From the NCBI GenBank assembly GCA_040218145.1, contig JAVJQK010000033.1, positions 62,001 to 126,000 of the forward strand: 64,000 nt of DNA, written 5' to 3'. Origin of the DNA: Sandaracinaceae bacterium. Its GTDB lineage: Bacteria > Myxococcota_A > Polyangia > Polyangiales > Sandaracinaceae. The notes beneath the pieces were generated by a model. That model had not been told where the DNA came from. It searched no databases and saw only the letters and a list, made by a program, of their open reading frames with translations. Positions 38,934-62,264 of the stretch are shown here, one piece after another (position 1 is the stretch's first letter; every line of letters starts with the position of its first letter). Made by a program: the position numbers and the translations under genes.

Positions 38934-45281
<6,348 letters not shown>

Positions 45282-45719: not shown

Positions 45720-48380
45720 GTGCCTCCCAAGTTCACCAGAAGCGCCATCGAGCGGGCCGTCAATCGGCCGACCGTGCTCATGGTCGGCGCCGGCGATCCC
45801 ATGGACGCCGCGCTGAAGATCGCCCTCGATCGGCATGGGCTGTTCGTGGAGGCGGTGGGTCTGGAGAACCTGCGCCGCTCGGTGCACCTGGCCGCGCCGG
45901 ACCTGATCCTCCTGCTCGGAGACGCGGCGGCCCAGGGCGGCGTCGCGGCGCTGACCGTGCTCGCGGAGGACGCCTCGACCGCCGCGGTGCCCGTGGTGCT
46001 CCTCGCCCAGGACGCGCGCCTCGAGAGCCGGATGCACGCCTTCCGGCACGGGGCCATGGCCGTGGTGCCGCGGAGCGCCAGCGCGGACGCCATCGCGCGG
46101 AGAGTGGCCCAGCTCTCGAAGGAGCTGTCGGAGCACTTCGAGGAGAAGACGGGCGAGATCGGCGAGGCCACCTTCGACGAGCTGGTCGAGCTGGTGAAGA
46201 AGGAGCTCCGGAGCGGGATCCTCTCCGTCCACACGCCCGGCCACAAGGGCGGCCCGATGCGCGTGGTGCTCGGGGCGGGCCGGCCCGTGGCGGCCGCGGT
46301 GCAGGAGTTCGTCGCGCGCCTGAAGCCCCACGTGCAGCAGGCCGACCCGATGTACTACCAGTTCCACACCAGCGCGGGCGGGCCGGTGGAGCTGCTCGAG
46401 GCCGACGCGCCGGAGACGGGGGACGTCAGCGCGTACGAGCGGCTGCGGGTGCTCCTGGTCGACGACGATCCGGCCCGGGCGGACACGCTCGCCCAGGAGC
46501 TGCGCAACCGCGGCGCGCTGGTCTTCGTGACCGACACCAAGGGCCAGGGCCTGCACCGCGCGGTCGGGCTCGACCCGCAGGTCGCGATCATCGACGCGGC
46601 CGGGCTCGAGGGCCAGGGCTTCGAGGTCGTGCGCGCCATCCGCAAGGACGTGCGGCTGCGCTGGGCGTCGATCCTGGTCGCGCCCTGGGAGGAGATCTGG
46701 CCCAAGGGGGCGCCGAGCCCGGACATGGAGCGGCTGGCCGCCCGGATCGAGCCGCTGCTCTCGCCCGAGCAGGACCTCCGAGAGCGCGCGGAGTCGGAGG
46801 CGCCCTTCGACATCCGACTCGAGTCGACCGGGCCGAGCCGCCTGATGCGGATCCTGACCCAGAACGGAGCGACCCTGCACCTGACGGTGCGGAACCCCAA
46901 GGCGGTCGTGCACATCGACCTGGCGGAGAACCTGATCGTCGGCGCGGTGGCGAAGCCCTCGGAGGGCCCGCAGGTCGGAGGCCCCGCCGCGCTCGCCACG
47001 CTGCTCTCGCTCGGCTCGGGCCGGGTCCGGGTCGAGCGGCGCGCCAACCCCTCGGTCGCCAACGTGATGGCGCCTCTCGACGAGGCCCTGAGCGCGGCCT
47101 CGCAGGAGGACAGCGCCGTGCGACCCTCGTCGGCGCCCCCGCGCCATCCGGTGCCGAGCCCTCCGAGGCCAGACGTGCCGAGGCCGGGCGCGGCGAGCCC
47201 CGCGATCCCGAGACCCCCGCCCCCGCCCCGATCGCCCGACGAGTCGGTGAGCGGCCCCCTGCTCCGCCCCACTCCTCCCGCGTCCTCCAGCGACGCGCCC
47301 GCCCGACCGCTCGCCAAGGGCGATCTGCGCTGGGACGCCACGCAGTCCGCGGAGGCCTTCGTGCCGCTCGAGGACGACGACGAGGCCCCGGAGCAGGCGC
47401 GCACCAAGATCAAGGATCTGTCCAAGCTCGCCGAGGCGGGCGAGGTGATCCTCGACGACGGCTCGACGGCCCCGCCGCCCCCCGTCGGACCGGTCGCCGC
47501 CAACGAGCGGCTGCGCCAGCGCACCAAGCGCAAGGCGACGCTCGTGATGGGCGCGCCGGTGCTTCCCCAGGAGAACCAGGACAAGACGCCGTCGGAGCCG
47601 CCGCCGTCGAGCTCGGGCATGCCGACGGTCCCGGCGCCGCCTCCGAGCGAGCAGCTGGAGGCGAGCGCGAAGCGTCCCGCCCGGCTGAAGAGCACGATGC
47701 TGGGCATGCAGGCGCCGGCGATCCCGAGCCCCACGCCCCCGCCGACCCAGCCCGTCGAGGAGCTCGCCCCCGACACGGACCCCGCGAGCGCGCCCGCCGG
47801 CGACGCGGACAGCGCGACGGCAAGCGATACGGCGAGCACGACGGCCAGCGACACGGCGATCGACACCCGGCCGGCCGAGCTCGAGGCGCCCCCTCCGATG
47901 CCCGAGCCGCCGTCGGAGCACGGCCTGCCCGTGGCGCCGCTCGAGGCCCGCCGCGAGGCGGCGGCGGAGCCCACGGAGCCCATCGCGCTGCCCCGTCGCC
48001 GGGGCCCCGCGCGTCTCTTCGCGATGCTCTCCGTGGCCACCGCCAGCCTGGTCTTGCTCACGGTCCTGAGCCTCATCGCCTACCGGCGCTCGGGCGAGTC
48101 GGTGCCCGCGCTCGACGCGGCGCTCCTCGCGCTCGGCGTCCCCCCCGTGGAGCCGACGACCCCGGAGATCGGCACGGAGATCGGCACGGAAGACCAGACC
48201 GAGCCGGAGGTCGAAGCCCAGGAGACCGAGACCGAAGCGGAAGCGGAAGCCGAGACCGAAGCCGAAGCGGAGGCGGAAACGGAGGCGGAAGCGGAAGCGG
48301 AAGCGGCAGCGGCAGCGGATGCCGAGTCGGCAGCAGACGCGGAGGCCGCGGGAGCTTCGAGCCCGGTCAGCCCGCGATGA
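45720..48380 (+). CDS. Tandem receiver/PATAN-like membrane protein with Glu/Ala-rich tail
   Basis: Two receiver-like domains alternate with two DUF4388/PATAN-like domains. The first receiver is PTVLMVGAGDPMDAALKIAL to VVPRSAS and is degenerate. The first PATAN-like part is FDELVELVKKELRSGILSVH. The second receiver, VLLVDDDPARADTLAQELRN, has IIDAAG, and the C-terminal Lys is not obvious. The second PATAN-like part is FDIRLESTGPSRLMRILTQN. A ~300-residue Pro/Ser-rich linker follows, then a membrane segment (LFAMLSVATASLVLLTVLSL, about 764-785) and an acidic Glu/Ala tail outside. GTG 45720 gives 886 residues; ATG 45618 in the same frame is possible. A TATGAT box at 45654 might be its -10. It is divergent from the vWA/MopE locus. 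The signalling partner is unknown. Confidence 0.65.
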   Translation: MPPKFTRSAIERAVNRPTVLMVGAGDPMDAALKIALDRHGLFVEAVGLENLRRSVHLAAPDLILLLGDAAAQGGVAALTVLAEDASTAAVPVVLLAQDARLESRMHAFRHGAMAVVPRSASADAIARRVAQLSKELSEHFEEKTGEIGEATFDELVELVKKELRSGILSVHTPGHKGGPMRVVLGAGRPVAAAVQEFVARLKPHVQQADPMYYQFHTSAGGPVELLEADAPETGDVSAYERLRVLLVDDDPARADTLAQELRNRGALVFVTDTKGQGLHRAVGLDPQVAIIDAAGLEGQGFEVVRAIRKDVRLRWASILVAPWEEIWPKGAPSPDMERLAARIEPLLSPEQDLRERAESEAPFDIRLESTGPSRLMRILTQNGATLHLTVRNPKAVVHIDLAENLIVGAVAKPSEGPQVGGPAALATLLSLGSGRVRVERRANPSVANVMAPLDEALSAASQEDSAVRPSSAPPRHPVPSPPRPDVPRPGAASPAIPRPPPPPRSPDESVSGPLLRPTPPASSSDAPARPLAKGDLRWDATQSAEAFVPLEDDDEAPEQARTKIKDLSKLAEAGEVILDDGSTAPPPPVGPVAANERLRQRTKRKATLVMGAPVLPQENQDKTPSEPPPSSSGMPTVPAPPPSEQLEASAKRPARLKSTMLGMQAPAIPSPTPPPTQPVEELAPDTDPASAPAGDADSATASDTASTTASDTAIDTRPAELEAPPPMPEPPSEHGLPVAPLEARREAAAEPTEPIALPRRRGPARLFAMLSVATASLVLLTVLSLIAYRRSGESVPALDAALLALGVPPVEPTTPEIGTEIGTEDQTEPEVEAQETETEAEAEAETEAEAEAETEAEAEAEAAAAADAESAADAEAAGASSPVSPR
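48213..48345 (+). repeat. Degenerate hexamer repeat encoding the Glu/Ala tail
   Basis: The run is built of GAAGCG, GAGACC and GAGGCG units repeated some twenty times, giving the (E-A/T)n tail of the REC/PATAN-like protein. It is a likely slippage hot spot. A shorter GAGATCGGCACG duplication lies just before it. Confidence 0.7.
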
Positions 48381-49545
48381 GCTCCACCTCGGTCGCCGCA
48401 GCGAACGCCATCGCCTTGGCTTCTTCCCACTCCGGGTGTCGGAACATCAGGTAGCCGTCGCTCACCAGCGTGTGGCGCCAGTTGCGCCGCGGCGAGCCCA
48501 CCGGCAGCAGGCGCTCCTCGATGAGCCAGCGCCCGCAGCGGCGGCGGAGCGCGTCCATGCCGCGGACCGCCTGGATGGCGCCCGCGCCCTTCGCCCGTTT
48601 GAACGTGATGGCGCAGTTGTACTTGCGCTGTGTATCGCCCTCGAAGCGCCCCCAGCAGACCGCGCGCGCCCACTCGACGAAGAGGTCGACGTCACATGTG
48701 TAGTTCATCTGATCGACCAGGTGCGCGCCGCCCGGGCGGGCTCCGATCTCGCCGAAGACCGCCTCGCCGTCGTCGGTGAGGAACCACTCCATGTGCGTGA
48801 AGCCGTCCTGCATGCCGAGCGCGCCGAGCACCGCGCGGCCGAGGGCGAGGCCCGGCTGGAGCTCGGGTCGCTCGAGATCGCGGACCGTGATGATCACGGG
48901 GCTGATCCACTCCGTCGAGCGCGCCTCGAGCGGCCTGGGCAGGTACTGCGCCACGTTCTCGAACAGAGGCTGACCGTCCACGCACACCGTGTCGTAGGTG
49001 CGCTCCTCACCGTGCACGAACTCCTCGACGCTGACCTCGGGGACGTGCCGCACGGCGTCGAGCACGCGCTGGAGATCGACCGCGTCATCCACTCGGTAGG
49101 TGTCGGCGCTTCCCGCGCCCGCGATGGGCTTGAGGATGAGCGGGTAGCCGATCTCCTCGGCCGCGGCCCAGACCTGGCGAGCGCTGCGAGCGCGAGCGGC
49201 GCGCGGGACGCGGAGGCCCGCCGCCTCGACTCGCTGCTTCATCACGTCCTTGTCGCGGAAGCCGATGGCGGTGTCGACCGACATGCCGGGCACCCCCCAG
49301 CGCTCTCGCATCCGCGCCGCGAGCACGATGAGCGGCTCCCAGTTGCAGAGCACCCGGTCGATGCTGCGGCCTCGGAGCCACGCCGTGGCGCGCTCGAGCA
49401 CGTCGTCCTCGTCGAGCAGCCGGGGCACGGCTAGGTAGCTCGAGAGATAGCGGCGGCTGTCCGCCGGCAGCCCCTCGAGGGGCGTGTCGCCGACGCCGTG
49501 GACACGCGCGCCGACCTCGGCGAGCCCGCGCGCGTACTGGCGCAT
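48367..49545 (-). CDS. ATP-grasp ligase-like protein
   Basis: A member of the carnosine-synthase-like ATP-grasp group, which joins a carboxylate to an amine using ATP. YPLILKPIAGAGSADTYRVD gives the ATP-binding lysine and Gly-rich loop. VEEFVHGEERTYDTVCVDG is the hinge region. GFTHMEWFLTDDGEAVFGEI then GARPGGAHLVDQ holds the Mg-binding Glu. At ATG 49545 the protein has 392 residues but lacks the first strand that the paralogues at 53029 and 55715 show. In-frame upstream codons encode IDVLFLAPTYPPE with no ATG, GTG or TTG, and ATC 49584 has GGGGTAAG upstream. The true start may be that codon. It lies downstream of the RIO-like kinase gene and overlaps the 3' end of the convergent REC/PATAN gene by 14 bp. 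Confidence 0.8.
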   Translation of the reverse strand: MRQYARGLAEVGARVHGVGDTPLEGLPADSRRYLSSYLAVPRLLDEDDVLERATAWLRGRSIDRVLCNWEPLIVLAARMRERWGVPGMSVDTAIGFRDKDVMKQRVEAAGLRVPRAARARSARQVWAAAEEIGYPLILKPIAGAGSADTYRVDDAVDLQRVLDAVRHVPEVSVEEFVHGEERTYDTVCVDGQPLFENVAQYLPRPLEARSTEWISPVIITVRDLERPELQPGLALGRAVLGALGMQDGFTHMEWFLTDDGEAVFGEIGARPGGAHLVDQMNYTCDVDLFVEWARAVCWGRFEGDTQRKYNCAITFKRAKGAGAIQAVRGMDALRRRCGRWLIEERLLPVGSPRRNWRHTLVSDGYLMFRHPEWEEAKAMAFAAATEVELIAG

Positions 49546-49646: not shown

Positions 49647-51392
49647 TCAGCCGCCCGAGAGGGGCGCGGGGGACTTGCGGCGACGGCGGCGACGGCGACG
49701 ACGCTTCGGCGCTCCGTCCTCGGCGCCCGACCGCGGGGCTTCCCTCGCACCGTTCTGCTGCGGAGGCTGCTGCGACTGCGGCTGGCGACCTTCGTCCGGC
49801 TTCGGGTCCCCGCTACGGCGGCGGCGGCGGCGGCGCTTCGGAGGCGCGCCCTCCTCCGGGCGCTGCGAGTCGTGGCCGCGCCCCTCAGCGCTGCGGCTCC
49901 GCGCGTCGCCGTCGCGACCGCGGGCGTCGCCATGGCGCGCGTCGCCATCGCGGCTCCCACCGTCACGGCTGCGCGCGTCGCCGCGGCGCCCTTCGCCGTC
50001 GCGACCGCGGACGTCGCCATGGCGCGCGTCGCCATCGCGGCTCCCACCGTCACGGCTGCGCACGTCGCGGCGCGCGTCGCCGTCGCGACCGCGTGCGTCG
50101 TCGCGCCGCGCGTCGCCATCGCGGCTCCGGCCGTCACGGCTGCGCGCGTCGTCGCGGCGCGCATCGCCGCTCCGGCTCCGAGCCTCGCTGTTGCGCCCGT
50201 CTCCGCTCCGGCTCCGAGCCTCGCCGTTGCGCCCGTCTCCGTGACGGCTCCGAGCCTCGCCGTTGCGCCCGTCTCCGTGACGGCTCCGGGCGTCGCCGTT
50301 GCGTGCGTCACGGCCGCGCCCGTCGCCGTTGCGGCTCCGGGGATCGCCATCGCGGGTGTCCCCGCCACGAGCCCGGGCGTCGCCGTCGCTGCGGCTGCGG
50401 CCGTCTCCGGCGCGGGCGTCGCGGCGGCGCGGGTCTCCGCTCCGCGCGGCGCGCTCGTTGGGCGCCCCGCCCGCGCCACCCGAGCGGCGGCGTCCGCGGC
50501 CGCCCTCGGGCTGCGGCGCCGTCATCACGACCTCGCGCTTGCGCTGCGGCTGCCCGCCGACCTTCTCACGGCGACGCCGCTCGTCTTCGTCGGCGTCCTC
50601 GATCTGCGAGAGGATGCCGCGCATGTCGACCGGCGCCGACGAGCGCTGGAAGCGGCCCGTGAGCTCGAGGTCCGGGGTGAGCGTGTTGCTCTCGTAGGCG
50701 GCCCAGAGCTCCTCCCCGTACGGCCGACGGCGGGCGCTCGGCGAGAAGCGCGAGAGGAACGCCGAGAGGTTGTCCACGTCGCGGATCAGCAGCTTCTTGG
50801 CGTTGCGGTTCTGCGCCGCGTCGACCGACTGCGGGAAGTCGATGACCACCGGCCCGTCCGCGTCGACGAGGATGTTGTAGTCCGAGAGGTCGCCGTGCAC
50901 GATTCCCGCGCACAGCATCTTGACGACCTCGCGGAGCAGGCGCTCGAAGTACGCGGTGGCCGTCTGGGCGTCGAGGTCGAGCTCCGCCAGCCGCGGCGCG
51001 GGGTATCCGTCGTCGCCGCGGACGAGCTCCATGATCAGCACCCCGTCGATGAAGTTCCACGGGGCGGGGACGCGCACACCCTGCGCGTGGAGCCGGTGGA
51101 TCACGTCGACCTCGGCCGACTTCCAGGCCTGCTCCTCCTGCGCTCGGCCGTGGCGGCTGCGCCGGTCGATGGCCCGCTGGTCGCGCGTGTTGCGGACCCG
51201 ACGACCCTCCGAGTACTGGGCGCGCTGCTTGAACGAGCGCTCGCTCGCGTCCTTGTAGACCTTGGCCACCCGCACGTCGCCGCCGGCGCGCACGAGGTAG
51301 ACCTGGGCCTCCTTGCCGCTCTTGAGGGGACGGACGACCTCGTCGATGACGCCTTGGTCGGTCAGCGACCACAACACTTCAGGTACGCGCAT
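49647..51392 (-). CDS. RIO-family protein kinase with long Arg/Asp/Gly-rich tail
   Basis: The kinase domain (about residues 5-260) has RIO1 signatures. SGKEAQVYLV with the following VAKVYKD is the ATP loop and lysine. IVHGDLSDYNILVD is the catalytic loop. VVIDFPQSVD is the metal-binding loop. Residues ~290-581 are low-complexity: repeated RSRDG/GDAR units with basic blocks (KRRRRRRRRSG, KRRRRRRRRRRK) at the end, predicted to be disordered. ATG 51392 is preferred because earlier in-frame codons overlap the divergent kinase gene and do not resemble the family. RIO kinases act in ribosome maturation in archaea and eukaryotes; bacterial roles are little known. The tail could bind RNA (inference). 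Confidence 0.85.
   Translation of the reverse strand: MRVPEVLWSLTDQGVIDEVVRPLKSGKEAQVYLVRAGGDVRVAKVYKDASERSFKQRAQYSEGRRVRNTRDQRAIDRRSRHGRAQEEQAWKSAEVDVIHRLHAQGVRVPAPWNFIDGVLIMELVRGDDGYPAPRLAELDLDAQTATAYFERLLREVVKMLCAGIVHGDLSDYNILVDADGPVVIDFPQSVDAAQNRNAKKLLIRDVDNLSAFLSRFSPSARRRPYGEELWAAYESNTLTPDLELTGRFQRSSAPVDMRGILSQIEDADEDERRRREKVGGQPQRKREVVMTAPQPEGGRGRRRSGGAGGAPNERAARSGDPRRRDARAGDGRSRSDGDARARGGDTRDGDPRSRNGDGRGRDARNGDARSRHGDGRNGEARSRHGDGRNGEARSRSGDGRNSEARSRSGDARRDDARSRDGRSRDGDARRDDARGRDGDARRDVRSRDGGSRDGDARHGDVRGRDGEGRRGDARSRDGGSRDGDARHGDARGRDGDARSRSAEGRGHDSQRPEEGAPPKRRRRRRRSGDPKPDEGRQPQSQQPPQQNGAREAPRSGAEDGAPKRRRRRRRRRKSPAPLSGG
49895..50425 (-). repeat. Coding repeats of the RIO kinase tail
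   Basis: Within the gene, imperfect copies of short units such as CGTCGCCATCGCGGCTC recur, with two longer near-copies near 49914-49990 and 50001-50065. They encode (RSRDGGSRDGDARHGD)-like sequence. It is a coding minisatellite. Confidence 0.55.
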
Positions 51393-51537
51393 GAGCTCCA
51401 ACCGCTGGCGGGTCGAGGGATGTTGGCGATCGGCCAAGCGTAGCACCGTCGCGACGCGCCGCAGCCCGGCGTTGACGCCGCGCCTCGGGGCCTGCAAATG
51501 TGGCCGAACGCCGCGCCCTGGGCCGCTCGGAGAGAGC

Positions 51538-52659
51538 ATGAACCCGGACCTCACCACCAAGAGCAGCCACCTCGAGGAGTCCACCGCCATCGACGCTTCG
51601 TTCCGTCGCCTGGCCTTGCTGGCCCACGGGGGCTTCGGCGTCATCGAGCTCGCGATTCGCCCGCCTGACGGGCAACTCTATGCGGTGAAGCGGCTTCATC
51701 CGAGCGAGGCGAGCGACCCCGGACGGATGGACATGTTCCTCGACGAAGCCCGCCTGGCCAGCCGCATCCACCACGAGAACGTGGTGGCGGTCCGGGACAC
51801 GGGCTGCGACGCCAACGGCCCCTTCATCGCGATGGACTTCGTCGAAGGGCTCGACCTGCGCGCCGTGATCGACGGGACGCGAGAGGCCCTGCCCGCCCAG
51901 CTCTGCGCGACCATCGCGGCGCAGGTGGCGCACGGGCTCCACGCCGCGCACGAGGCCCGCGACGTCGACGGCGAGCCGCTCGGGCTCGTCCATCGCGACC
52001 TCGCGCCGCCCAACGTCCTCGTCGGCGTCGACGGCCGCGTCAGGCTCCTCGACTTCGGGGTCGCCAAGGCCAAGCGGCGGTTCACGGCGACGGCGATCGG
52101 CGTCCGGAAGGGCCGCTACTCCTACATGTCGCCCGAGCAGGTGGCCAACCAGCCGCTCGACCGGCGCAGTGACCTCTTCTCGCTCGGCGTCGTCCTGCAC
52201 GAGCTGCTCAGCGGCCAGCACCCCTTCGAGGGCGAAGACGGCATCGCGCGCGCGGTCGCGGTCATGCACCGCGCCGAGCCGGTCCGGATCCGGGATGTGC
52301 GCCCGGACGTGCCGCCGAGCCTCGAGGTCCTGCTCGCGGAGCTCCTCGCCTTCACCCCCGATGAGCGCCCGCCGACGGCGGCCAACGTCGCCCGGCGCCT
52401 CGACGCGCTGGTCAGCGAGCTGGCCGCGAGCGAGGGTCCGATCTCGCTCGAAGATCACCTCTCGAACATGTTCGGCAACGAGCTGGCCGAACAGCGCCGC
52501 CTCGTGGAGGCGGCCGTTCGTCCGCGCCACCCCTCGGTGCCCCCCGCTCCGGCTCCGGCCGCGCCGTCGACCCGCTCGCTCGTCTGGCTCGCGGCCGCGC
52601 TCATCACGGTGGGCGCGGGCCTCGGGTTCGCGCTCGCCGCACTGCTCGCGCCCACGTAG
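51538..52659 (+). CDS. Ser/Thr protein kinase with C-terminal membrane anchor
   Basis: This is a Hanks-type kinase. LAHGGFGVIELA is the Gly loop and YAVKRLH the ATP lysine. VHRDLAPPNVLV (near residue 151) holds the catalytic Asp, LLDFGVAK the Mg-binding Asp, and YMSPEQ the APE-like end of the activation segment. A Pro/Ala linker precedes a single membrane segment near the C-terminus (SLVWLAAALITVGAGLGFAL). The external tail is only a few residues, so there is no extracellular sensor. GGAGAGAG lies 3-5 bp before ATG 51538. It is divergent from the RIO-like kinase gene, 145 bp away. Targets unknown. Confidence 0.9.
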   Translation: MNPDLTTKSSHLEESTAIDASFRRLALLAHGGFGVIELAIRPPDGQLYAVKRLHPSEASDPGRMDMFLDEARLASRIHHENVVAVRDTGCDANGPFIAMDFVEGLDLRAVIDGTREALPAQLCATIAAQVAHGLHAAHEARDVDGEPLGLVHRDLAPPNVLVGVDGRVRLLDFGVAKAKRRFTATAIGVRKGRYSYMSPEQVANQPLDRRSDLFSLGVVLHELLSGQHPFEGEDGIARAVAVMHRAEPVRIRDVRPDVPPSLEVLLAELLAFTPDERPPTAANVARRLDALVSELAASEGPISLEDHLSNMFGNELAEQRRLVEAAVRPRHPSVPPAPAPAAPSTRSLVWLAAALITVGAGLGFALAALLAPT

Positions 52660-53028: not shown

Positions 53029-54255
53029 ATGAACGTCATCTTCATCGCCCCCTTCCCCGCCGAGACCACGCTGCGCTTCGTGCGCGCGAGCAAGGCGCTG
53101 CTCTCCGAAGACGGAGGGCGTGGTCGCCTCCTCGGCGTCGTGCACACGGCCCCCGGTGGCGCGGACTCCGGGCTGTTCCACGACATGGCGCGGGTCGACA
53201 ACCCCATGGATCTCGGTCAGCTCGCGGGCGCCATCGAGCGGCTCGCCGCGAAGCACGGGCGGCCCGACCGCATCCTCGGGATCCTCGAGCCGATGCAGGT
53301 GGAGCTGGCCAAGCTCCGGGCGCACTTCGGGGTGAGCGGCACGGACGAGAAGACGGCGGCGCTCTTCCGCGACAAGGCGATGATGAAGGACGCCCTGCGG
53401 GCGGCGGGCCTGCCCACGGCGCGGCACCGGCTCCTGCGCTCCTGGGAGGACGCGGGCGCGTTCCTCGACGAGGTCGGCTTCCCGATCGTGCTGAAGCCGC
53501 CGGCCGGCATGGCCTGCAAGGCGACGTGGCGCATCGAGTCGATCGAGCAGGCGCGCGCCGCGCTCGAGGCGCTCCAGCCGCGGAGCGAGGACCCGGTCCT
53601 GGCCGAGGAATTCCTGCGCGGCCGCGAGCACAGCCTGGAGACCATCACGGTCAAGGGCGAGGTGCGGATGTTCTCGAGCACCGAGTACCACCCGACGCCG
53701 CTCGAGGTGGTCGAGAACGACTGGATCCAGTGGGCGGTCATCGCCCCGCGCGAGCTGGACGGTCCGGGCGTGCAGGAGGCGGCCGCGCTGGCGAAGCGCG
53801 CCGTGAAGGCGCTCGGGCTCGGCAGCGGCATGACGCACATGGAGTGGTTCCGCCGCGAGGACGGGTCGCTCGCGATCGGGGAGATCGCGGCGCGCCCGCC
53901 CGGGGCCAACATCGTGCGGCTGACCGGGCTCGCGCACGACACCAGCATGTACCGCGCGTGGGCGCGCGCGGTGATCGACGAGGCCTTCGACGGCCCCTTC
54001 GAGCGACGCTACGCGAGCGGCTCGGCGTTCTTGCGCGGGATCGGGCGCGGGCGGGTGCTCGGCGTGGAGGGGCTGGACGCGGTGCACCGCGCCATCGGGG
54101 ACCTGGTGGTCGAGGCGAAGGTGCCCACCATCGGCGCCCCCAAGTCCGACAGCTACGAGGGCGACGGCCACGTCATCGTGCGCCACCCCGAGACCTCGGT
54201 GGTCGAGGACGCGATGCGCGCCGTCATCGACGCCGTTCGCGTACGATACGCCTGA
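53029..54255 (+). CDS. ATP-grasp ligase-like protein, first gene of the ATP-grasp/glgA operon
   Basis: The 408-residue protein starts with a preATP-grasp strand MNVIFIAPFPAETTLRFVRA. DKAMMKDALRAAGLPTARHR is the usual helix before the ATP-grasp domain. FPIVLKPPAGMACKATWRIE is the lysine/Gly loop. LAEEFLRGREHSLETITVKG is the hinge. THMEWFRREDGSLAIGEIAA with RPPGANIV holds the metal Glu. This is the carnosine-synthase-like group. The C-terminal ~90 residues are variable. It shares extended similarity with the proteins at 48367 and 55715 (the THMEWF block), so three paralogues lie within 9 kb. The substrate is unknown. The glgA GTG lies 8 bp after its stop. Confidence 0.85.
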   Translation: MNVIFIAPFPAETTLRFVRASKALLSEDGGRGRLLGVVHTAPGGADSGLFHDMARVDNPMDLGQLAGAIERLAAKHGRPDRILGILEPMQVELAKLRAHFGVSGTDEKTAALFRDKAMMKDALRAAGLPTARHRLLRSWEDAGAFLDEVGFPIVLKPPAGMACKATWRIESIEQARAALEALQPRSEDPVLAEEFLRGREHSLETITVKGEVRMFSSTEYHPTPLEVVENDWIQWAVIAPRELDGPGVQEAAALAKRAVKALGLGSGMTHMEWFRREDGSLAIGEIAARPPGANIVRLTGLAHDTSMYRAWARAVIDEAFDGPFERRYASGSAFLRGIGRGRVLGVEGLDAVHRAIGDLVVEAKVPTIGAPKSDSYEGDGHVIVRHPETSVVEDAMRAVIDAVRVRYA

Positions 54256-54263
54256 GCCGACAC

Positions 54264-55715
54264 GTGAAGATCCTCTACGCTGCATCGGAGGTCGCCCCCT
54301 TCGCCAAGACCGGCGGCCTCGCCGACGTCTCGGCCGCGCTGCCGCGCCACCTCGCGCGCCGCGGCCACGACGTGCTGCTGGTGGCGCCGCTCTACCGTCG
54401 CGTGCGCGAGACGGTGGAGACCACGCCCATCCCCGGCGCCCAGGATCTGCGGCTGTCGCTCGGCCCGCACGAGGTCCGCGTCTCGCTGCACCGCGCGCCG
54501 CTGCCCAACTCGGAGGTCCAGGTCTGCTTCGTGCGCTGCGACGCGCTGTACGGGCGCGACGGGATCTACACGCAGGACCCAGACGAGCACCTGCGCTTCA
54601 TCGTGTTGACCTACGCCGCGCTGACCGCGTGTCAGCGGCTCGGCTTCGCGCCCGACATCGCCCACGTGCACGACTGGCAGACCGCGCTGTTGCCGCTCGC
54701 GCTGCGCTGCCGCTACGACTGGGACGGGGCGATCTTCGGGCGCACCAAGACGGTCCTGACGATCCACAACCTCGCCCACCAGGGCGCGTTCGGCGCGCAC
54801 GTCCTGCCCGACACCGGCCTCGCGGACAGCGCGCACCTCTTCCACCAGGATCAGCTCAGCGCGGGCGCGATCAGCCTGCTCACCACGGGCATCCTCTACG
54901 CCGACGCGATCACCACCGTCAGCCCCACCTACGCGAAGGAGATCCAGTCCCCCGAGCTCGGCATGGGCCTCGACGGGCTGCTCCGCGAGCGGGCGAGCAC
55001 GGTGGTGGGCGTCCTGAACGGGATCGACCCCACCGAGTGGGATCCGGCGACCGATCCGCTCATCCCGCACCGCTTCTCACGCGGGGATCTCGACGGCAAG
55101 GAGCGTTGCAAGAAGGCGCTCCTCGAGAGCGTGGGCCTGCCCTATCACACCGGGCTGCCGCTCGCGGGCGTGGTCACCCGGCTGACGGCGCAGAAGGGGC
55201 TCGAGCTCATCCTCGAGGTGGCCCCGCACTTCCTGGCCCGCGGGCGCATGCAGCTGGTCGTGCTCGGCTCGGGCGCGACGCACTACGAGAACGCGTTCTC
55301 GCAGCTCCAGCACCGCTTCCCCCACCAGGTCTGCTTCTACCGCGGCTTCTCGAACGAGCTGGCGCACCTCATCGAGGCGGGCTCGGACATGTTCTTGATG
55401 CCCTCGCGCTTCGAGCCGTGCGGTCTGAACCAGCTCTACAGCCTCGCCTACGGCACCGCGCCCATCGTGCGCGCCACGGGCGGGCTCAAGGACAGCGTGC
55501 GCCCCTTCGACGCGCGCACGGGCGAGGGCACGGGCTTCGTCTTCGAGCACTTCGACGCGCAGGGCCTGGGCTGGGCGCTCGACCAGGCGCTGCGCACCTA
55601 CCGGAACCGGCCGCTCTGGCGCCGACTCCAGGACAACGCCATGGCGCAGGACTTCTCGTGGGAGCGGCGGGTCCGCACCTACGAGGAGCTCTATGAGCGC
55701 GTGAGGGAGCTCTGA
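54264..55715 (+). CDS. glgA: Glycogen (starch) synthase
   Basis: This GT5-family glucosyltransferase transfers glucose from ADP-glucose to alpha-1,4-glucan ends. VKILYAASEVAPFAKTGGLA contains the KTGGL substrate-binding motif. DIAHVHDWQTALLPL, KTVLTIHNLAHQGAF, TTVSPTYAKEIQ and VLNGIDPTEWDP are GT5 blocks. PSRFEPCGLNQLYSLAYGTA contains the catalytic EPCGL motif, and GTAPIVRATGGLKDSV follows. The length of 483 residues is typical. It is embedded between two ATP-grasp genes (8-bp gap before, 1-bp overlap after), not beside glgB, glgC or glgP. Either these genes merely share a promoter, or an alpha-glucan is part of the pathway encoded here. Confidence 0.92.
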   Translation: MKILYAASEVAPFAKTGGLADVSAALPRHLARRGHDVLLVAPLYRRVRETVETTPIPGAQDLRLSLGPHEVRVSLHRAPLPNSEVQVCFVRCDALYGRDGIYTQDPDEHLRFIVLTYAALTACQRLGFAPDIAHVHDWQTALLPLALRCRYDWDGAIFGRTKTVLTIHNLAHQGAFGAHVLPDTGLADSAHLFHQDQLSAGAISLLTTGILYADAITTVSPTYAKEIQSPELGMGLDGLLRERASTVVGVLNGIDPTEWDPATDPLIPHRFSRGDLDGKERCKKALLESVGLPYHTGLPLAGVVTRLTAQKGLELILEVAPHFLARGRMQLVVLGSGATHYENAFSQLQHRFPHQVCFYRGFSNELAHLIEAGSDMFLMPSRFEPCGLNQLYSLAYGTAPIVRATGGLKDSVRPFDARTGEGTGFVFEHFDAQGLGWALDQALRTYRNRPLWRRLQDNAMAQDFSWERRVRTYEELYERVREL

Positions 55716-56938
55716 TGGACGTCATCCTCGTCGAGCCGTGCTTTCCCCGGAACCAGCGTGAGTTCGCGCGGGCGCTGCACTCGGTGGGCGCGCGCGTGAT
55801 CGGCATCGGCGAGCGCCCCAAGGAGGCGCTCGACGACAGCCTGCGGCACTGGCTCACGCACTACGAGCAGGTCTCGAACGTGTGCGACGAGGCGGCGCTC
55901 GAGAAGGCGGTGCGCTTCGTCCAGTCGATCAGCCACCCCGAGCGGCTCGAGGCGACGGTCGAGGCCCACATCCAGACCGCGGCGCAGGTGCGCGAGCGCT
56001 GCGGGATCCCGGGCACGAGCGCGAAGACGGCGTTCCTGTGCCGCGACAAGCCCTCCATGAAGGAGGTGCTCCGCCAGGCCGGCGTCCCCTGCGCGGCGTC
56101 GACGGGGACCGGCTCCCCCGACGAGGCGCGCGCCTTCGCGGCCCGGGTCGGCTACCCGCTCATCCTCAAGCCCCGCGACGGCGCGGGCGCGGCGGGCACC
56201 TTCCGCGTGGACGACGACGCGGAGCTCGAGGCGGCGATGCAGAAGAGCGGCCTCGGCCGCGGCGCGTCGGTCGCGATCGAGGAGTTCGTCGAGGGGCACG
56301 AGGGCTTCTACGACACCGTCACGGTCGACGGCCGCGTCGTGCACGAGTTCGTCTGCCACTACTACCCGAACGTGCTCGAGGCGATGCGCACGCGCTGGAT
56401 CTCGCCGCAGTTCATCACCACCAACCGCGTGGAGAGCGCGCCGGGGTACGAAGAGGTGCGCGCGATGGGCCGCCGGGTCATCGAGGCGCTCGACATCGGC
56501 ACGAGCGCCACGCACATGGAGTGGTTCTTCGGGCCCAAGGGCCTGCGCTTCAGCGAGATCGGCTGCCGCCCGCCGGGCGTCGGCGCGTGGGACCTCTACA
56601 GCGCGGGCAACGAGATGGACCTCTACCGCGAGTGGGCGATGGCCGTCGTGCACGGCCGGCCCGGCTCCAAGCCCTCGCGACGCTACGCGGCGGGCATCAT
56701 CGCGCTCCGCCCGGACCGGGACGGCGTCATCGATCACTACGACGGGCTCGAAGAGGTCCAGCGAAACTTCGGTGAGCACCTGATCGACGCGCACCTGCCG
56801 CCCGCGGGGACGCCGACCCAGCCCGTCGAGGCCGGCTACATGGCCAACGCGTGGATGCGCTTCCGCCACCCGGACTACGACACCCTGCGCCGCATCCTGG
56901 ACGCGGTCGGCCAGACGGTGCAGGTTCGCGCTCGATGA
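55715..56938 (+). CDS. ATP-grasp ligase-like protein, second gene of the operon type
   Basis: The 407-residue paralogue has the layout of its neighbours: MDVILVEPCFPRNQREFARA, DKPSMKEVLRQAGVP, YPLILKPRDGAGAAGTFRVD, AIEEFVEGHEGFYDTVTVDG, and THMEWFFGPKGLRFSEIGCR with PPGVGAWD. The lysines, the Gly loop and the metal Glu are present, so it should be active. It resembles the minus-strand protein at 48367 (RTRWISP/STEWISP and TYDTV/FYDTV blocks) more than the one at 53029. The ATG overlaps the glgA stop by one base, and the peptidase-like gene follows after 25 bp. The products it ligates are unknown. Confidence 0.85.
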   Translation: MDVILVEPCFPRNQREFARALHSVGARVIGIGERPKEALDDSLRHWLTHYEQVSNVCDEAALEKAVRFVQSISHPERLEATVEAHIQTAAQVRERCGIPGTSAKTAFLCRDKPSMKEVLRQAGVPCAASTGTGSPDEARAFAARVGYPLILKPRDGAGAAGTFRVDDDAELEAAMQKSGLGRGASVAIEEFVEGHEGFYDTVTVDGRVVHEFVCHYYPNVLEAMRTRWISPQFITTNRVESAPGYEEVRAMGRRVIEALDIGTSATHMEWFFGPKGLRFSEIGCRPPGVGAWDLYSAGNEMDLYREWAMAVVHGRPGSKPSRRYAAGIIALRPDRDGVIDHYDGLEEVQRNFGEHLIDAHLPPAGTPTQPVEAGYMANAWMRFRHPDYDTLRRILDAVGQTVQVRAR

Positions 56939-56963
56939 GCTCGGTACCCGACCCGGAGGCGAC

Positions 56964-57890
56964 GTGAAGGTCGCGCTACTCGGACCGCAGCGCTTCGACC
57001 CCAGCGTGGCCGAGGCGGCGAAGGCGGCCGGCGTCACCGGGCGCTTCGCGCTGATCACCGCCGGCTGGCAGGAGCGCGAGCGGGAGGACGACGAGCTGTC
57101 CGAGCACCTCGGCGGCCGCACGGTGAACCTCGCGCTGCACGAGCGGGCCGACGACGTCTTCCGGAGCGACGGCGAGCTGCGCGGGGCCTACCGCGCGCGC
57201 CAGCTCCGCTTCCGCCAGCTCCAGGACTTCTACCGCATCCGGCTCGAGCACCTGATCGAGTCCGCGCGGGTGATCGCGCACCGCGCCGCCCCCACCGAGC
57301 TGCTCGCGCAGGAGCAGGAGTGGTCGGTCAACGGGATTCGCGTGCTCGATAAGCACCATCTCCGTCAGTGCGAGCGCGTGCGGACGGAGTTCCAGAAGGA
57401 GTGGGCGCCGCACGCGCGAGGTCGCGTCGCCTGGCACCGGGCGGAGCTCGCGCGGCTGCTCGAGGGCTGCGACGCGGTCGCGATCGCGGGCGGGCACGTC
57501 GCGTCGCTGCTCAACCGGTTGCAGCTCTTCGGCGTGACGGACCTCATCGGGGAGCGCCCGGTCTTCGCCTGGTCGGCGGGCGCGATGGCCGTCACCGAGC
57601 GCATCGTGCTCTTCCACGACGACCCTCCCTACGGGGTGGACGCACCGCAGGTGCTCGAGCCCGGCCTCGGGCTTGTGTCGGACGTCGTGGCGCTGCCGAA
57701 CCCGGAGGCCCGGCTCGCGCTGGACGACGCCGAGCGGATGGCGATGTACGCGCAGCGCTTCGCGCCCGCGACCTGCATGGTCCTGCCGCGCCGCAGCTGG
57801 GTGCTCTTCGAGGCGGGCGCCCTGGTCGAGAGCCAACGCGCCCTGACCCTCCACGCAGACGGCGCCGTCGCGGACGCGGAGGCAGCGTGA
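56964..57890 (+). CDS. Peptidase S51/cyanophycinase-like (class I glutaminase-fold) hydrolase
   Basis: The 308-residue protein starts VKVALLGPQRFDPSVAEAAK. GRFALITAGWQEREREDDEL is the first glycine motif. DAVAIAGGHVASLLNRLQLF is the substrate loop, and GERPVFAWSAGAMAVTERIV holds the nucleophile Ser in the WSAGA elbow, like the GxSAGA of S51 peptidases. A helical insertion of about 60 residues (LQDFYRIRLEHLIESARVIA) is larger than in dipeptidase E. Members hydrolyse Asp- or Arg-containing dipeptides or isopeptides such as cyanophycin. A good GGAGG site precedes GTG 56964. Beside ATP-grasp ligases it may release or trim the amide product. Assignment to S51 is by motif. Confidence 0.75.
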   Translation: MKVALLGPQRFDPSVAEAAKAAGVTGRFALITAGWQEREREDDELSEHLGGRTVNLALHERADDVFRSDGELRGAYRARQLRFRQLQDFYRIRLEHLIESARVIAHRAAPTELLAQEQEWSVNGIRVLDKHHLRQCERVRTEFQKEWAPHARGRVAWHRAELARLLEGCDAVAIAGGHVASLLNRLQLFGVTDLIGERPVFAWSAGAMAVTERIVLFHDDPPYGVDAPQVLEPGLGLVSDVVALPNPEARLALDDAERMAMYAQRFAPATCMVLPRRSWVLFEAGALVESQRALTLHADGAVADAEAA

Positions 57891-59035
57891 CCGGCGAGCG
57901 GCTCGCCATCCATCGGCTCCTCGCCGACGCGCCCGTGACGGGCGAGAAGATCGACGCGTTCCTGAAGGGGCGCGAGTTCCCGGTCGTCGAAGGCGCGAGC
58001 GTCACGTTCGTCTTCCGGGGCGACGTCGAGGGCGTGAACCTGCGGCACTGGATCTACGGCCTCGAGTCCTCGCAGGCGCTGACGCGCGTGCCGGAGACCG
58101 ACCTCTTCTACGGGATCGTCGAGCTGCCGCCGCACTCGCGGGTCGAGTACAAGCTCGAGCTCCGCAAGGACGGCAACAGCTGGTGGGTCGAGGACCCGCT
58201 GAACGACAAGCGCGCGCACGATCCCTTCGGTGCGAACTCCGTCGCGCACGGCGAGGGCTACGAGGTCCCCGCCTGGACGCAGACGGATCCGGAGGCGCGG
58301 GCCGGCGTGCTCGAGCCCTTCCGCATGAAGAGCCGGGTCTTCGGCGGCGTGCGCGGCGGCCACCTCTACTACCCGGCGCGCTACCGCACCTCGCGCCGCT
58401 ACCCGCTCCTCGTGGTGCACGACGGCAGCGACTACCTCCGCTACGCGGCGATGAAGACGGTGCTCGACAACCTGATCCACCGCCTGGCCATCCCGGACAT
58501 GGTGGTCTGCTTCAGCGACTCGCCCGACCGCCTCAAGGAGTACGCGAGCGACGAGGCGCACGCGCGCTTCCTCAAGGAGGAGCTCGTCCCGCACCTCGAG
58601 CGCACGCTCCCGCTCGACGCGAGGCCGCAGGGGCGCTGCCTCATGGGGGCGAGCTTCGGCGCGGTCGCCGCGCTCTCGACCGCGTGGCGCTACCCGGGCT
58701 TCTTCGGCCGGCTGATGCTGCAGTCGGGCTCGTTCGCCTTCACGGACATCGGCGGCGGGAACCGGCGCGGCCCGCTCTTCGACCCCGTGGTCGCGTTCGT
58801 GAACGAGCTCCGCAAGGACATCGGCCCGATGAGCGAGCGCGTGTTCCTGAGCTGCGGCGTGTACGAGTCGCTGATCTACGAGAACCGCTCGCTGGTGCCG
58901 CTCCTGAGCGAGAGCGGCATGGAGGTGCGCTTCGAAGAGGCGCGCGACGGTCACAACTGGGAAAACTGGCGGGATCGACTGCAGGACGGGCTCTCGTGGC
59001 TCTTCCCCGGACCGCTCTTGATGGTCTACGAGTGA
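57887..59035 (+). CDS. Fes-like esterase with N-terminal E-set domain
   Basis: GTG 57887 overlaps the previous stop (GTGA). The N-terminal ~130 residues resemble an Ig/E-set domain of the enterochelin-esterase or CBM48 type (VTFVFRGDVEGVNLRHWIYG, LPPHSRVEYKLELRKDGNSW). The C-terminal alpha/beta-hydrolase domain has RYPLLVVHDGSDYLRYAAMK, catalytic Ser in CLMGASFGAVAALSTAWRYP, and catalytic His in EEARDGHNWENWRDRLQDGL. This is the Fes/putative esterase D type. Such enzymes cleave ester bonds of siderophores or glycan acyl groups. A 7-bp gap separates it from the next gene. The length is 382 residues. Substrate unknown; the E-set domain could bind an alpha-glucan (inference). Confidence 0.85.
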   Translation: MTGERLAIHRLLADAPVTGEKIDAFLKGREFPVVEGASVTFVFRGDVEGVNLRHWIYGLESSQALTRVPETDLFYGIVELPPHSRVEYKLELRKDGNSWWVEDPLNDKRAHDPFGANSVAHGEGYEVPAWTQTDPEARAGVLEPFRMKSRVFGGVRGGHLYYPARYRTSRRYPLLVVHDGSDYLRYAAMKTVLDNLIHRLAIPDMVVCFSDSPDRLKEYASDEAHARFLKEELVPHLERTLPLDARPQGRCLMGASFGAVAALSTAWRYPGFFGRLMLQSGSFAFTDIGGGNRRGPLFDPVVAFVNELRKDIGPMSERVFLSCGVYESLIYENRSLVPLLSESGMEVRFEEARDGHNWENWRDRLQDGLSWLFPGPLLMVYE

Positions 59036-59042
59036 GAGACGC

Positions 59043-60284
59043 ATGCCGAACGTGACGAAGAAGATCGGGCTCTCGCTGGGAGCCGACCTCTGCTGGCCCC
59101 TCTGCTACGAGGACCTCCTCCGGCGGCTCGCGCTGTCGATCCCCGTGGACGGCGACCGGGTCCAGCTCGAGGTCGAGCGGGTCTCGATCGAGCCCTTCGA
59201 CCTGAGCCAGCCGTGCAGCTACGCCGTGGTCATAGACCGGCTGACGCACTGGTACCACACGAGCCGGGAGTGGATAAAGAAAGCCGTGTTGATGGACGAC
59301 CTCTACGTCCTCAACAACCCCTGGTCGCTCCAGTCGATGGAGAAGCAGACGACCTACTGCGCGATGATGAAGCTCGGCATGGCCATCCCCGAGACGTGGA
59401 TGCTCCCGCCGAAGTCCTACGAGCCGCTCCCGGACCTGCGCGACACGCTCCAGCGCTACGCGAAGCTCTTCGACGTCGGCCGCGTCGGCAAGGAGCTGGG
59501 CTACCCGGTGATCCTCAAGCCCTACGACGGCGGCGGCTGGCGCGCGGTCACGCGGGCGGAGGACGAGGCGGCGCTCCGGCGCGCGTACGAGTCGAGCGGC
59601 AGCCTCGTCATGCACGCCCAGAAGGCCGTACACCCGCACGACATGTTCGTGCGCTGCGTCGGCATCGGCCCGCAGACGCGCTTCGTGAAGTACGACCTGA
59701 CGGCGCCGCTGCACGACCGCTACACGATGGACACCGCGTTCTTGACCGCCGCCGAGGAGGCGGAGATCCGGGACACGACGATGACCATCAACAGCTTCTT
59801 CGGCTGGGAGTTCAACAGCTGCGAGCTGATGCGGAGCGAGGGCGTCTGGCACCCCATCGACTTCGCCAACGCCTGCCCGGACTCACAGGTCACGTCGCTC
59901 CACTACCACTTCCCCTGGCTCGTGAAGTCGCTGCTGCGCTGGAGCGTCTACTGCGCGGTGACCGGCCGGCCGATGCGGCGCACGCTCGACTGGGACGCCT
60001 ACTACGCCATCGCGAACGAGGACGCGCCCTACCCGGAGAAGCTCGCGCGCTACGCCGAGATCGCGGCCGACCGCTTCGAGACGGAGCGCTTCGAGGAGTT
60101 CTGCGCCACGCACCTCGCCCACCTGGACGAGGAGGCGTACGCCTACTTCGGGACCGACGACGCGAAGCGGGCGGTGCGCCGGAAGGTCGAGGCGCTCTAC
60201 CCGGAGCACGAGCGCGACTCGTTCACCGAGCTGTTCTGGGGCCGCATCCAGAAGTGGCGCGCCGAAGAGGGGTCCCCGGCGTGA
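59043..60284 (+). CDS. Divergent ATP-grasp-like protein
   Basis: The 413-residue protein has a different N-terminus from the other ATP-grasp proteins (KKIGLSLGADLCWPLCYEDL). The ATP-grasp core is recognisable: LQSMEKQTTYCAMMKLGMAI, YPVILKPYDGGGWRAVTRAE, VMHAQKAVHPHDMFVRCVGI and NSCELMRSEGVWHPIDFANA. The usual Glu/Asn metal pair seems to be replaced by DFANA. Its ligands are thus partly unusual, and activity needs testing. It follows the Fes-like esterase by 7 bp and overlaps the second esterase start (GTGA). Operon position suggests it completes or reverses a step in the same pathway. No family name is recognised. Confidence 0.75.
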   Translation: MPNVTKKIGLSLGADLCWPLCYEDLLRRLALSIPVDGDRVQLEVERVSIEPFDLSQPCSYAVVIDRLTHWYHTSREWIKKAVLMDDLYVLNNPWSLQSMEKQTTYCAMMKLGMAIPETWMLPPKSYEPLPDLRDTLQRYAKLFDVGRVGKELGYPVILKPYDGGGWRAVTRAEDEAALRRAYESSGSLVMHAQKAVHPHDMFVRCVGIGPQTRFVKYDLTAPLHDRYTMDTAFLTAAEEAEIRDTTMTINSFFGWEFNSCELMRSEGVWHPIDFANACPDSQVTSLHYHFPWLVKSLLRWSVYCAVTGRPMRRTLDWDAYYAIANEDAPYPEKLARYAEIAADRFETERFEEFCATHLAHLDEEAYAYFGTDDAKRAVRRKVEALYPEHERDSFTELFWGRIQKWRAEEGSPA

Positions 60285-61027
60285 GCCTTCACGAGACGTC
60301 CACCTGGTACAGCCACCGGGTGAAGCGCGAGGTGCGCCTCAGCCGCTGGGGTCACTTCGGCGTGCCGGTCCTCGTCTTCCCCACCGCGGGCGGCGACTCC
60401 GAGGAGATCGAGCGCTGGCAGATGATCCGAGCGCTGGCGCCGCTGCTGGGGGCGGGGCGCGTCAAGATCTACTCCTGTGATTCGGTGGCGGGTCAGGCGT
60501 GGTTCGCGCAAGAGGGCGACCTCGGCCACCGCATGTGGGTCATGAACCAGTTCCAGCAGTACGTGCGCCACGAGGTGGTCCCCGCGATCTACGCGGATTG
60601 CCGCACGGACACCCTGCCCATCTGGACGGCCGGCGCGTCGATCGGCGCGCTGCACGCGGTGGCGATGGTCTGCCGCTTCCCGGACGTCTTCCATCGCGCG
60701 CTCGGCATGAGCGGCACCTACGACATCCTGCGCTTCGCGGGCGCCGACCGCTTCACCCACGACTACTTCGTCTCGACGCCGCTCCGGTTCGTGCCGGAGC
60801 TGAGCGAGGAGGACCCGCGCCTCGCTCTCCTCCGTCAACGTTTCGTGCTGCTCGCGTCGGGAGAGGGCCGGGCCGAGGCCATCCAGGAGAGCTGGAACAT
60901 GGCCAAGGTGCTCGGCGAGCGCCGCGTCCCCAACTGGGTCGACAGCTGGGGCCCCTCCTGGCACCACGACTGGGAGACCTGGCGCGAGATGCTGCCGAAG
61001 TACCTCGCGGAGTGGACCTCGCAGTAG
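60281..61027 (+). CDS. Esterase, second alpha/beta hydrolase of the operon
   Basis: GTG 60281 overlaps the preceding stop. The 248-residue protein has VPVLVFPTAGGDSEEIERWQ as the oxyanion region and IWTAGASIGALHAVAMVCRF with the catalytic Ser in GASIGA. FHRALGMSGTYDILRF and the C-terminal SWHHDWETWREMLPKYLAEW provide the His. It resembles the C-terminal domain of the Fes-like esterase in this operon, sharing GAS[FI]GA and an HxWExW-like end, so the two probably act on related esters. There is no signal peptide, so it is cytoplasmic. It ends the operon; the next gene starts 46 bp away with a secretion signal. Confidence 0.82.
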   Translation: MSLHETSTWYSHRVKREVRLSRWGHFGVPVLVFPTAGGDSEEIERWQMIRALAPLLGAGRVKIYSCDSVAGQAWFAQEGDLGHRMWVMNQFQQYVRHEVVPAIYADCRTDTLPIWTAGASIGALHAVAMVCRFPDVFHRALGMSGTYDILRFAGADRFTHDYFVSTPLRFVPELSEEDPRLALLRQRFVLLASGEGRAEAIQESWNMAKVLGERRVPNWVDSWGPSWHHDWETWREMLPKYLAEWTSQ

Positions 61028-61073: not shown

Positions 61074-62264
61074 GTGATTCGACTTCTGCTCGCCTTCTGC
61101 CTGCTCGCCGCCTGCGGGTCTCCCGCCGATCCCGACGGCGGGGTCGCGCGCGACGCCGGCCTCGCGGACGCGGGCCTCGCCGACGCGGGCGCCCTGCCCG
61201 AGCCGGCGACGGACTACTTCGCGCGGGGGCCCCACCCGGTCGGGAACGTGCGCGTGCTCCTGACCGACGCGACGCGCGGGCGCGCCCTGCCGACGGAGCT
61301 CTGGTACCCCGCGGCGGAGGCGGCGAGGGACGACGCGGAGCGCGGGCAGCCGCTTGGCGCGTTCGAGATGGAGCCGCCTCGCGCGGACACCCTCGCCGGG
61401 CTGATCGCCGACGCGGATCCGAGCTGCCTCCGCGCGACGACGCGATCGGCCCCCGCGCCCGAGCCGGCCGCCAGCCCGGGCCGCTGGCCGGTCGTGGTCT
61501 TCTCGCACTGCCACGTGTGCACGCGCTTCGACCTCGCCCAGGTCGCGGAGCGGCTCGCGAGCTTCGGGATCGCGGTCGCGGCGCCGGATCACGAGGAGAA
61601 CACCCTCTGGGATCACCTCGAAGGGAGCGCGGCGGAGGTGGGGAGCGAGTTCCTGGAGGTGCGCGTGGCGGACGTGCGCTTCGTGCTCGACGCGCTCCTC
61701 GACGACGGCCTCGAGGCGCTGCCCGAGGGGCTGCGCGGCCGCTTCGACCCCGAGCGCGCGGCCGTCATGGGGCACAGCTTCGGCGCGGCGACGGCGGGGA
61801 TCGCGGCCGCGCGGGACGCTCGATTCCGCGCGGGCCTGGCGGTGGCCGCGCCGCTGACCGCGCTCGGGGGCGGGGTGACCGCGGGTGACATCACCACCCC
61901 GTTCGCCTTCGTGCTGGCGATGGAAGACAACAGCATCACCGAGGCCGGCAACCGCCTCATCCGCAACGAGCACCGTCGCCTCGGCGCGCCGAGCCTGCTC
62001 GTGGAGGTCGAGGACGCCGGCCACTGGAGCTTCTCCGACCACGCGGGCCTGGTCGACCTCTTCGCCGCGGGCTGCGGCGAGGGCGAGCGGCAGACCTCGC
62101 CGGGCGAGGCGTTCACGTACCTCGACAACGCGACCGCGCGGGACGTCGCGGCCGGGGTGGCCGCCGCCTTCTTCGGGCGCCACCTCCTGGACGACCCGGG
62201 CGGCCTCACGCCCATCCTCCGCGGGCACCCGTCCGGCGTCACCACGGCGTCCCTGCGGGAGTGA
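61074..62264 (+). CDS. Lipoprotein with alpha/beta-hydrolase domain (PAF-acetylhydrolase-like)
   Basis: VIRLLLAFCLLAACGSPADP is a lipoprotein signal with Cys14 in the LAAC lipobox; an Ala/Asp-rich linker follows. PVVVFSHCHVCTRFDLAQVA gives the oxyanion region, and AAVMGHSFGAATAGIAAARD is the nucleophile elbow GHSFGA. PFAFVLAMEDNSITEAGNRL precedes the acid, and LVEVEDAGHWSFSDHAGLVD carries the catalytic His. The fold is that of PAF-acetylhydrolase/dienelactone-hydrolase-like enzymes. Its 396 residues sit at the envelope. The GTG start (61074) is used, and no good ribosome-binding site was seen. The substrate cannot be named. Confidence 0.83.
   Translation: MIRLLLAFCLLAACGSPADPDGGVARDAGLADAGLADAGALPEPATDYFARGPHPVGNVRVLLTDATRGRALPTELWYPAAEAARDDAERGQPLGAFEMEPPRADTLAGLIADADPSCLRATTRSAPAPEPAASPGRWPVVVFSHCHVCTRFDLAQVAERLASFGIAVAAPDHEENTLWDHLEGSAAEVGSEFLEVRVADVRFVLDALLDDGLEALPEGLRGRFDPERAAVMGHSFGAATAGIAAARDARFRAGLAVAAPLTALGGGVTAGDITTPFAFVLAMEDNSITEAGNRLIRNEHRRLGAPSLLVEVEDAGHWSFSDHAGLVDLFAAGCGEGERQTSPGEAFTYLDNATARDVAAGVAAAFFGRHLLDDPGGLTPILRGHPSGVTTASLRE

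Follow-up and report, generated by a model that had tools for sequence, protein, structure and literature searches.

Among the described systems that come closest to the locus reported here are the neighbourhoods of ATP-grasp/COOH-NH2 ligases (amidoligase networks) and the bacterial glycogen loci. In amidoligase networks, several unrelated peptide ligases are found together with hydrolases, and the linked ligases often carry out successive ligations (PMC4431377). Glycogen loci contain genes such as GlgC-GlgA, GT3, GDE and GH57, and in the sections covered here of the 2024 alpha-glucan review (PMC11046441), neither "esterase" nor "ATP-grasp" appears. Here, we analysed a stretch of 64,000 nucleotides (the window) from contig 33 (JAVJQK010000033.1, positions 62,001 to 126,000), part of the 11.06 Mb high-GC genome of a Sandaracinaceae bacterium (Myxococcota; GCA_040218145.1), which contains a set of eight genes called A to G and X. 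A, C, X and F encode ligases, B encodes a GlgA, D an S51-fold protein, and E and G encode esterases. According to the open reading frames (ORFs) of the window, A to G form an operon on the plus strand with spacings of 8, -1, 25, -4, 7 and -4 bp, and these seven genes lie exactly where the original prediction, a note made from the sequence alone, had placed them. The set resembles amidoligase networks in its combination of ligases and hydrolases, and also in the accessory GCS2, FGase and AstE genes that adjoin it in relatives, but it is set apart by its connection with glycogen loci, a dedicated GlgA, a pair of PF00756 esterases and three paralogous ligases of the L-amino-acid ligase (LAL) type. 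It is embedded within glycogen loci in other phyla, whereas its ligases and esterases are not in the pathways of the review sections mentioned above. No description of this gene set was found in the open-licence literature searched. A known anti-phage defence system was rejected, with 0 PADLOC matches for all eight proteins. In summary, A to G and X are one conserved, co-inherited set, and it is very probably a real system tied to glycogen metabolism.

To begin with Myxococcota, F, C and X were each used to search 284 genomes. The genome samples of this study contain incomplete metagenome-assembled genomes, genes beyond the window were called from ORFs and hidden Markov models, and synteny loci were picked by F identity. 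The search with F gave about 80 strong matches, at 51-69% identity where full length. F, C and X are each found in about 28% of the genomes (80 of 284), with F and C sharing 78 genomes, F and X 76, and all three 74. Fisher p values are 6e-65 for F versus C and 1e-58 for F versus X, where the co-occurrence statistics, like the expected counts below, ignore relatedness. In the surroundings (up to 20 kb) of 50 F loci, E was found at 37, G at 35, D 33, C 27, A 18, X 15 and B 15. The order B-C-D-E-F-G is kept in many of these loci, often with X and A next as a pair, and X adjoins A in many relatives. For example, locus L045 reads <X >A >B >C >D >E >F >G, which is the order of the window minus two kinase genes. 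The fourth ATP-grasp gene that had been noted at 48367 in the opposite direction is correctly positioned, but it is X, a member of the set instead of a mere neighbour.

When C or X is absent beside F, it is found elsewhere in the genome. One family has the arrangement E-D|C-X plus F-G-A, and another has A-C(-X) plus D-E-F-G, while the set is dispersed over about 70 kb in G173, a family mate of the window genome with a single contig of 10,327,335 bp. The set stays complete even when it is split between loci, which is the pattern of a single pathway. An accidental grouping of unrelated genes might be suspected from the gene order and orientation, which differ between phyla, but it has virtually no chance of being true, and is ruled out by the near-identical presence and absence of F, C and X together with dozens of conserved loci.

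The set is also found outside Myxococcota, in samples whose phylum label was taken from one member each (G292: Gemmatales, Planctomycetota; G284: Gemmatimonadota). In the Planctomycetota sample, F occurs in 27 of 199 genomes at 41-66% identity, and 19 F loci contain E (17), D (16), G (15), A (12), X (11), B (10) and C (10), in gene orders and strands different from those of the window. In Gemmatimonadota, a block of the window type is present in two genomes (L236, L240), while L228 and L237 have A-X and then FesL-Glike-c9-CPg-YbdK-PuuD, in which c9 is a short F-like ATP-grasp family. As a check, the original prediction had named the conservation across genera of GlgA together with two or more ATP-grasp genes and the S51 gene. 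This association was found, and it extends across phyla.

The link to glycogen comes from B and from the neighbours of the set. B scores 534 bits against TIGR02095 (cut-off 328) and has the conserved GlgA residues, including R306, K311 and E384. It belongs to a GlgA clade separate from the other GlgA copies of the same genomes (support 97/98; 29 rows, both phyla), and the window genome has a second glgC-glgA pair on contig 76. GlgA of the B clade was detected in 28 of the 284 Myxococcota genomes, and 25 of these 28 also have F. Moreover, 27 of the 84 genomes with ligases have the start of a GlgA gene no more than 5 kb away from C, X or F, where a rough uniform estimate predicts about 0.6 such genomes. 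For three of these GlgA genes (G253, G262, G074), identity to B is just 44-46%, which suggests separate recruitment.

Neighbour clustering with a Pfam check revealed GlgC, a debranching enzyme (GDE_N/GDE_C), GH57, GT4 and a GT3 glycogen-synthase/phosphorylase protein in Planctomycetota loci (L208, L211, L213, L215, L217, L219, L221 and others). In G423, the sole GlgC and GlgA found lie within the block. The Gemmatimonadota locus L230 has, in this order, a GT35-like phosphorylase, GlgA, a GH57 branching enzyme, GH57-DUF3536, A and X. Within Myxococcota, it is chiefly B that makes the connection, with an additional GlgC at L069. The set is associated with glycogen genes in at least two phyla beyond Myxococcota, and the tie to alpha-glucan is stronger than the window alone showed, because the set sits among GlgC, debranching, GH57 and phosphorylase genes elsewhere.

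The family calls of the original prediction (ATP-grasp, GlgA, Fes-like esterase, divergent ATP-grasp, esterase) were borne out by Pfam, TIGR02095 and fold. A, C and X are ATP-grasp proteins by family search. The closest PDB entry of C is 4wd3, an L-amino acid ligase of RizA type (E 1e-21). The alignment of A with C spans the full length of both (hhalign E 7e-78, 32% identity), and X is about 37% identical to C, so the three are paralogues. The likeness to L-amino-acid ligases (RizA-type 4wd3, BacD) covers the ATP-grasp core of C, of which A is the full-length paralogue; however, scores with LAL_C2 and the NCBIfam models lie below cut-offs, far so for the curated family ones, and here three such ligases go together with F.

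Pfam gave no match for F. Its predicted structure (AlphaFold; predicted local distance difference test, pLDDT, 87.8) has an ATP-grasp fold, with Foldseek E values down to 4e-10, and K159, E261, D273 and N276 are invariant. Among the structures that match it best are VanA, ArgX, D-Ala ligases, MdnC and PsnB, of which VanA, MdnC and PsnB are known as ester-forming ATP-grasps. F thus shares its fold with the graspetide enzymes MdnC and PsnB, but it differs by a C-terminal helical extension. A graspetide, as a ribosomally synthesized and post-translationally modified peptide, was rejected, as a precursor gene cannot fit in intergenic gaps of at most 25 bp.

D scores 21.6 bits against Pfam S51, just below the cut-off of 23.9, and its predicted fold is that of S51 (peptidase E, cyanophycinase; Foldseek probability 1.00) with a long helical insertion. 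In the D family, the catalytic Ser is present in 40 of 51 members, the His in 30 and both in 26, the members with both often coming from the Planctomycetota sample. The "S51-like hydrolase" of the original prediction therefore stands as a fold, but not as an active peptidase: since the Ser/His dyad is not conserved and the His is Asn in the window, peptidase activity is doubtful in the window lineage, and so, judged from these residues, is a cyanophycin-like one. A cyanophycin-like storage peptide, with the S51 hydrolase for its breakdown, would fit the fold of D and the weak matches of A and C with cyanophycin synthetase, which cover the ATP-grasp core only. However, these matches reach 38-42 bits against cut-offs of about 850-877, and the ligases have about 400 aa against about 860-870 positions in the models of CphA, an enzyme of about 870 aa with two ligase domains. 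Together with the loss of the dyad in D, ligase length and scores largely refute such a polymer, which we regard as highly improbable.

E consists of Enterochelin_N and PF00756, and G of PF00756. Enterochelin_N was matched in 22 of 22 members of E at a permissive cut-off (E <=1; best 5e-8, 0.11 for the window member). The closest structure of E is the enterochelin esterase Fes (2b20, E 2e-21), followed by feruloyl esterases and CBM48-bearing CE1 enzymes. E shares both the Enterochelin_N and the esterase domain with Fes, but it scores only 97.6 bits against the NF007758 cut-off of 222, and no siderophore genes were seen in the block. The nucleophile Ser and the His are retained in every E and G member (57 of 57 for E).

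From these parts, we infer successive small-substrate ligations by A, C, X and F, with E and G acting at an ester on a glucan or glucoside. ATP-grasp enzymes such as VanA and MdnC are able to form esters. The reading that we prefer, though only tentatively, is that A to G and X may be an accessory module of alpha-glucan metabolism making a peptide or aminoacyl unit that is ester-joined to the glucan. Each of A, C, X and F, the last with its D-Ala-ligase/ArgX fold, would make one bond of a short unit of peptide-like or aminoacyl nature, and an ester would tie this unit to the alpha-glucan or glucoside that B makes. E, which is of Fes type, and G might form the ester by transfer or cleave it, and D, with its eroded dyad, might bind or channel the peptide part with no cutting in the window lineage. 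The product could be a compound for storage or stress that is produced and consumed along with glycogen.

Several observations weigh against this reading. In Gemmatimonadota, pyrB/pyrC-like pyrimidine genes, not glycogen genes, lie near A-X in L231, L233, L234, L235, L238 and L239, and A is likewise beside pyrimidine genes in the Myxococcota locus L056. Many Myxococcota with F, C and X have neither the dedicated GlgA nor a glycogen gene beside the set. The N-terminal domain of E is Enterochelin_N, and matches with the starch-binding CBM20 are weak and occur in 7 of 22 members only. Moreover, it is the esterases in the set that led us to assume a peptide-glucan ester.

Nearly as probable as the glucan-linked reading is a free product of the ligases. 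It would be peptide-like and small, namely an osmolyte, a nitrogen reserve, a thiol or an antibiotic. The glycogen genes would then be neighbours only through being switched on in the same stress or storage state, and E and G would act on esters within the molecule. Clusters with multiple ligases usually make small molecules (PMC4431377), and GlgA is located elsewhere in many genomes with F, C or X. The c9 neighbourhood, a related set that we consider a sister system, points in the same direction. The c9 family is widespread, with at least 581 loci in a scan of genome contigs. Its companions in Acidobacteriota, Chloroflexota and Gemmatimonadota are a G-like esterase, a circularly permuted ATP-grasp, a YbdK-type GCS2 ligase, PuuD and M29 (L094-L173, e.g. 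L126, L139, L160), mostly without glycogen genes, for which reason c9 was not used for the glycogen link. Against a free compound stand the GlgA clade specific to the set and the GlgA genes, probably outside this clade, beside the ligases of G253, G262 and G074, which is more than co-regulation alone would lead one to expect. The accessory neighbours at the 50 Myxococcota F loci, GCS2-CBS (14), FGase (9) and AstE (6), fit peptide-type chemistry with a glucan-linked or a free product alike.

In some Acidobacteriota loci (L107, L109, L110, L113), GlgC lies a few kb from a cluster of YbdK, c9, circularly permuted ATP-grasp and M29. The sister set may thus also touch glycogen metabolism in this phylum.

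Free-standing small ligases are known as protein modifiers, and the fold of F is near ArgX, MdnC and PsnB, enzymes that act on protein or peptide substrates. The ligases could then modify a protein with amino acids, perhaps one of the glycogen enzymes, in the manner of RimK or TTL-like enzymes, with E and G in another step. We consider this unlikely, as A, C and X come closest to L-amino-acid ligases that use free amino acids, the block has no carrier or target gene, and the two esterases would have no obvious role.

Returning to the glucan-linked reading, one specific form of it is that the ATP-grasp set attaches amino acids or short peptides reversibly to glycogen or a derived oligosaccharide, and that the two esterases remove this decoration; this form is rather doubtful. 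Such decoration would be novel as a covalent modification of storage polysaccharides and conserved in Myxococcota, Gemmatimonadota and probably Planctomycetota, which we likewise put forward with considerable reserve. More generally, the set would join peptide-bond chemistry to bacterial glycogen storage, a link absent from the covered sections of the alpha-glucan review (PMC11046441), and at least seven conserved protein families would gain a function.

The features of the locus are listed in the table.

Table. Genes of the set and the kinase genes between X and A in the window.
Gene	Position	Strand	Length	Product	Basis or remark
X	48367-49545	-	392 aa	LAL-like ATP-grasp ligase	Member of set; co-occurs with F and C
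Kinase	49647-51644	-		RIO-type kinase, long Arg/Asp/Gly-rich repeat tail	Between X and A; outside set
Kinase	51418-52659	+		Ser/Thr protein kinase	Between X and A; not a consistent set member
A	53029-54255	+	408 aa	LAL-like ATP-grasp ligase	Full-length paralogue of C
B	54264-55715	+	483 aa	GlgA-type glycogen synthase, dedicated clade, GTG start	TIGR02095, tree
C	55715-56938	+	407 aa	LAL-like ATP-grasp ligase, best conserved among A, C and X	PDB 4wd3 match
D	56964-57890	+		S51-fold protein, long helical insertion; Ser204 present, His replaced by Asn246	Fold, alignment
E	57887-59035	+	382 aa	Fes-like esterase, Enterochelin_N + PF00756, GTG start	Ser/His intact
F	59043-60284	+	413 aa	Divergent ATP-grasp ligase, C-terminal helical extension	Predicted structure
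G	60281-61027	+	248 aa	Small PF00756 esterase, GTG start	Ser/His intact

Kinase genes are only occasional neighbours of the set in relatives, where no RIO-type kinase gene was seen to separate X from A, for example in L045. A scan for promoters and terminators gave no signal above chance. Directly 3' of the operon, a PAF-acetylhydrolase-like hydrolase, probably secreted or a lipoprotein, is encoded at 61074-62264 (+); no such gene was found beside F in related loci. Elsewhere in the window, an ORF of 2115 aa at 38934-45281 (-), possibly the result of a missing stop or a sequencing error, spans apparently two exported proteins, with a MYXO-CTERM-like tail followed by an in-frame lipobox-like signal, and it contains many repeats of the CDGLDNDCDG type.

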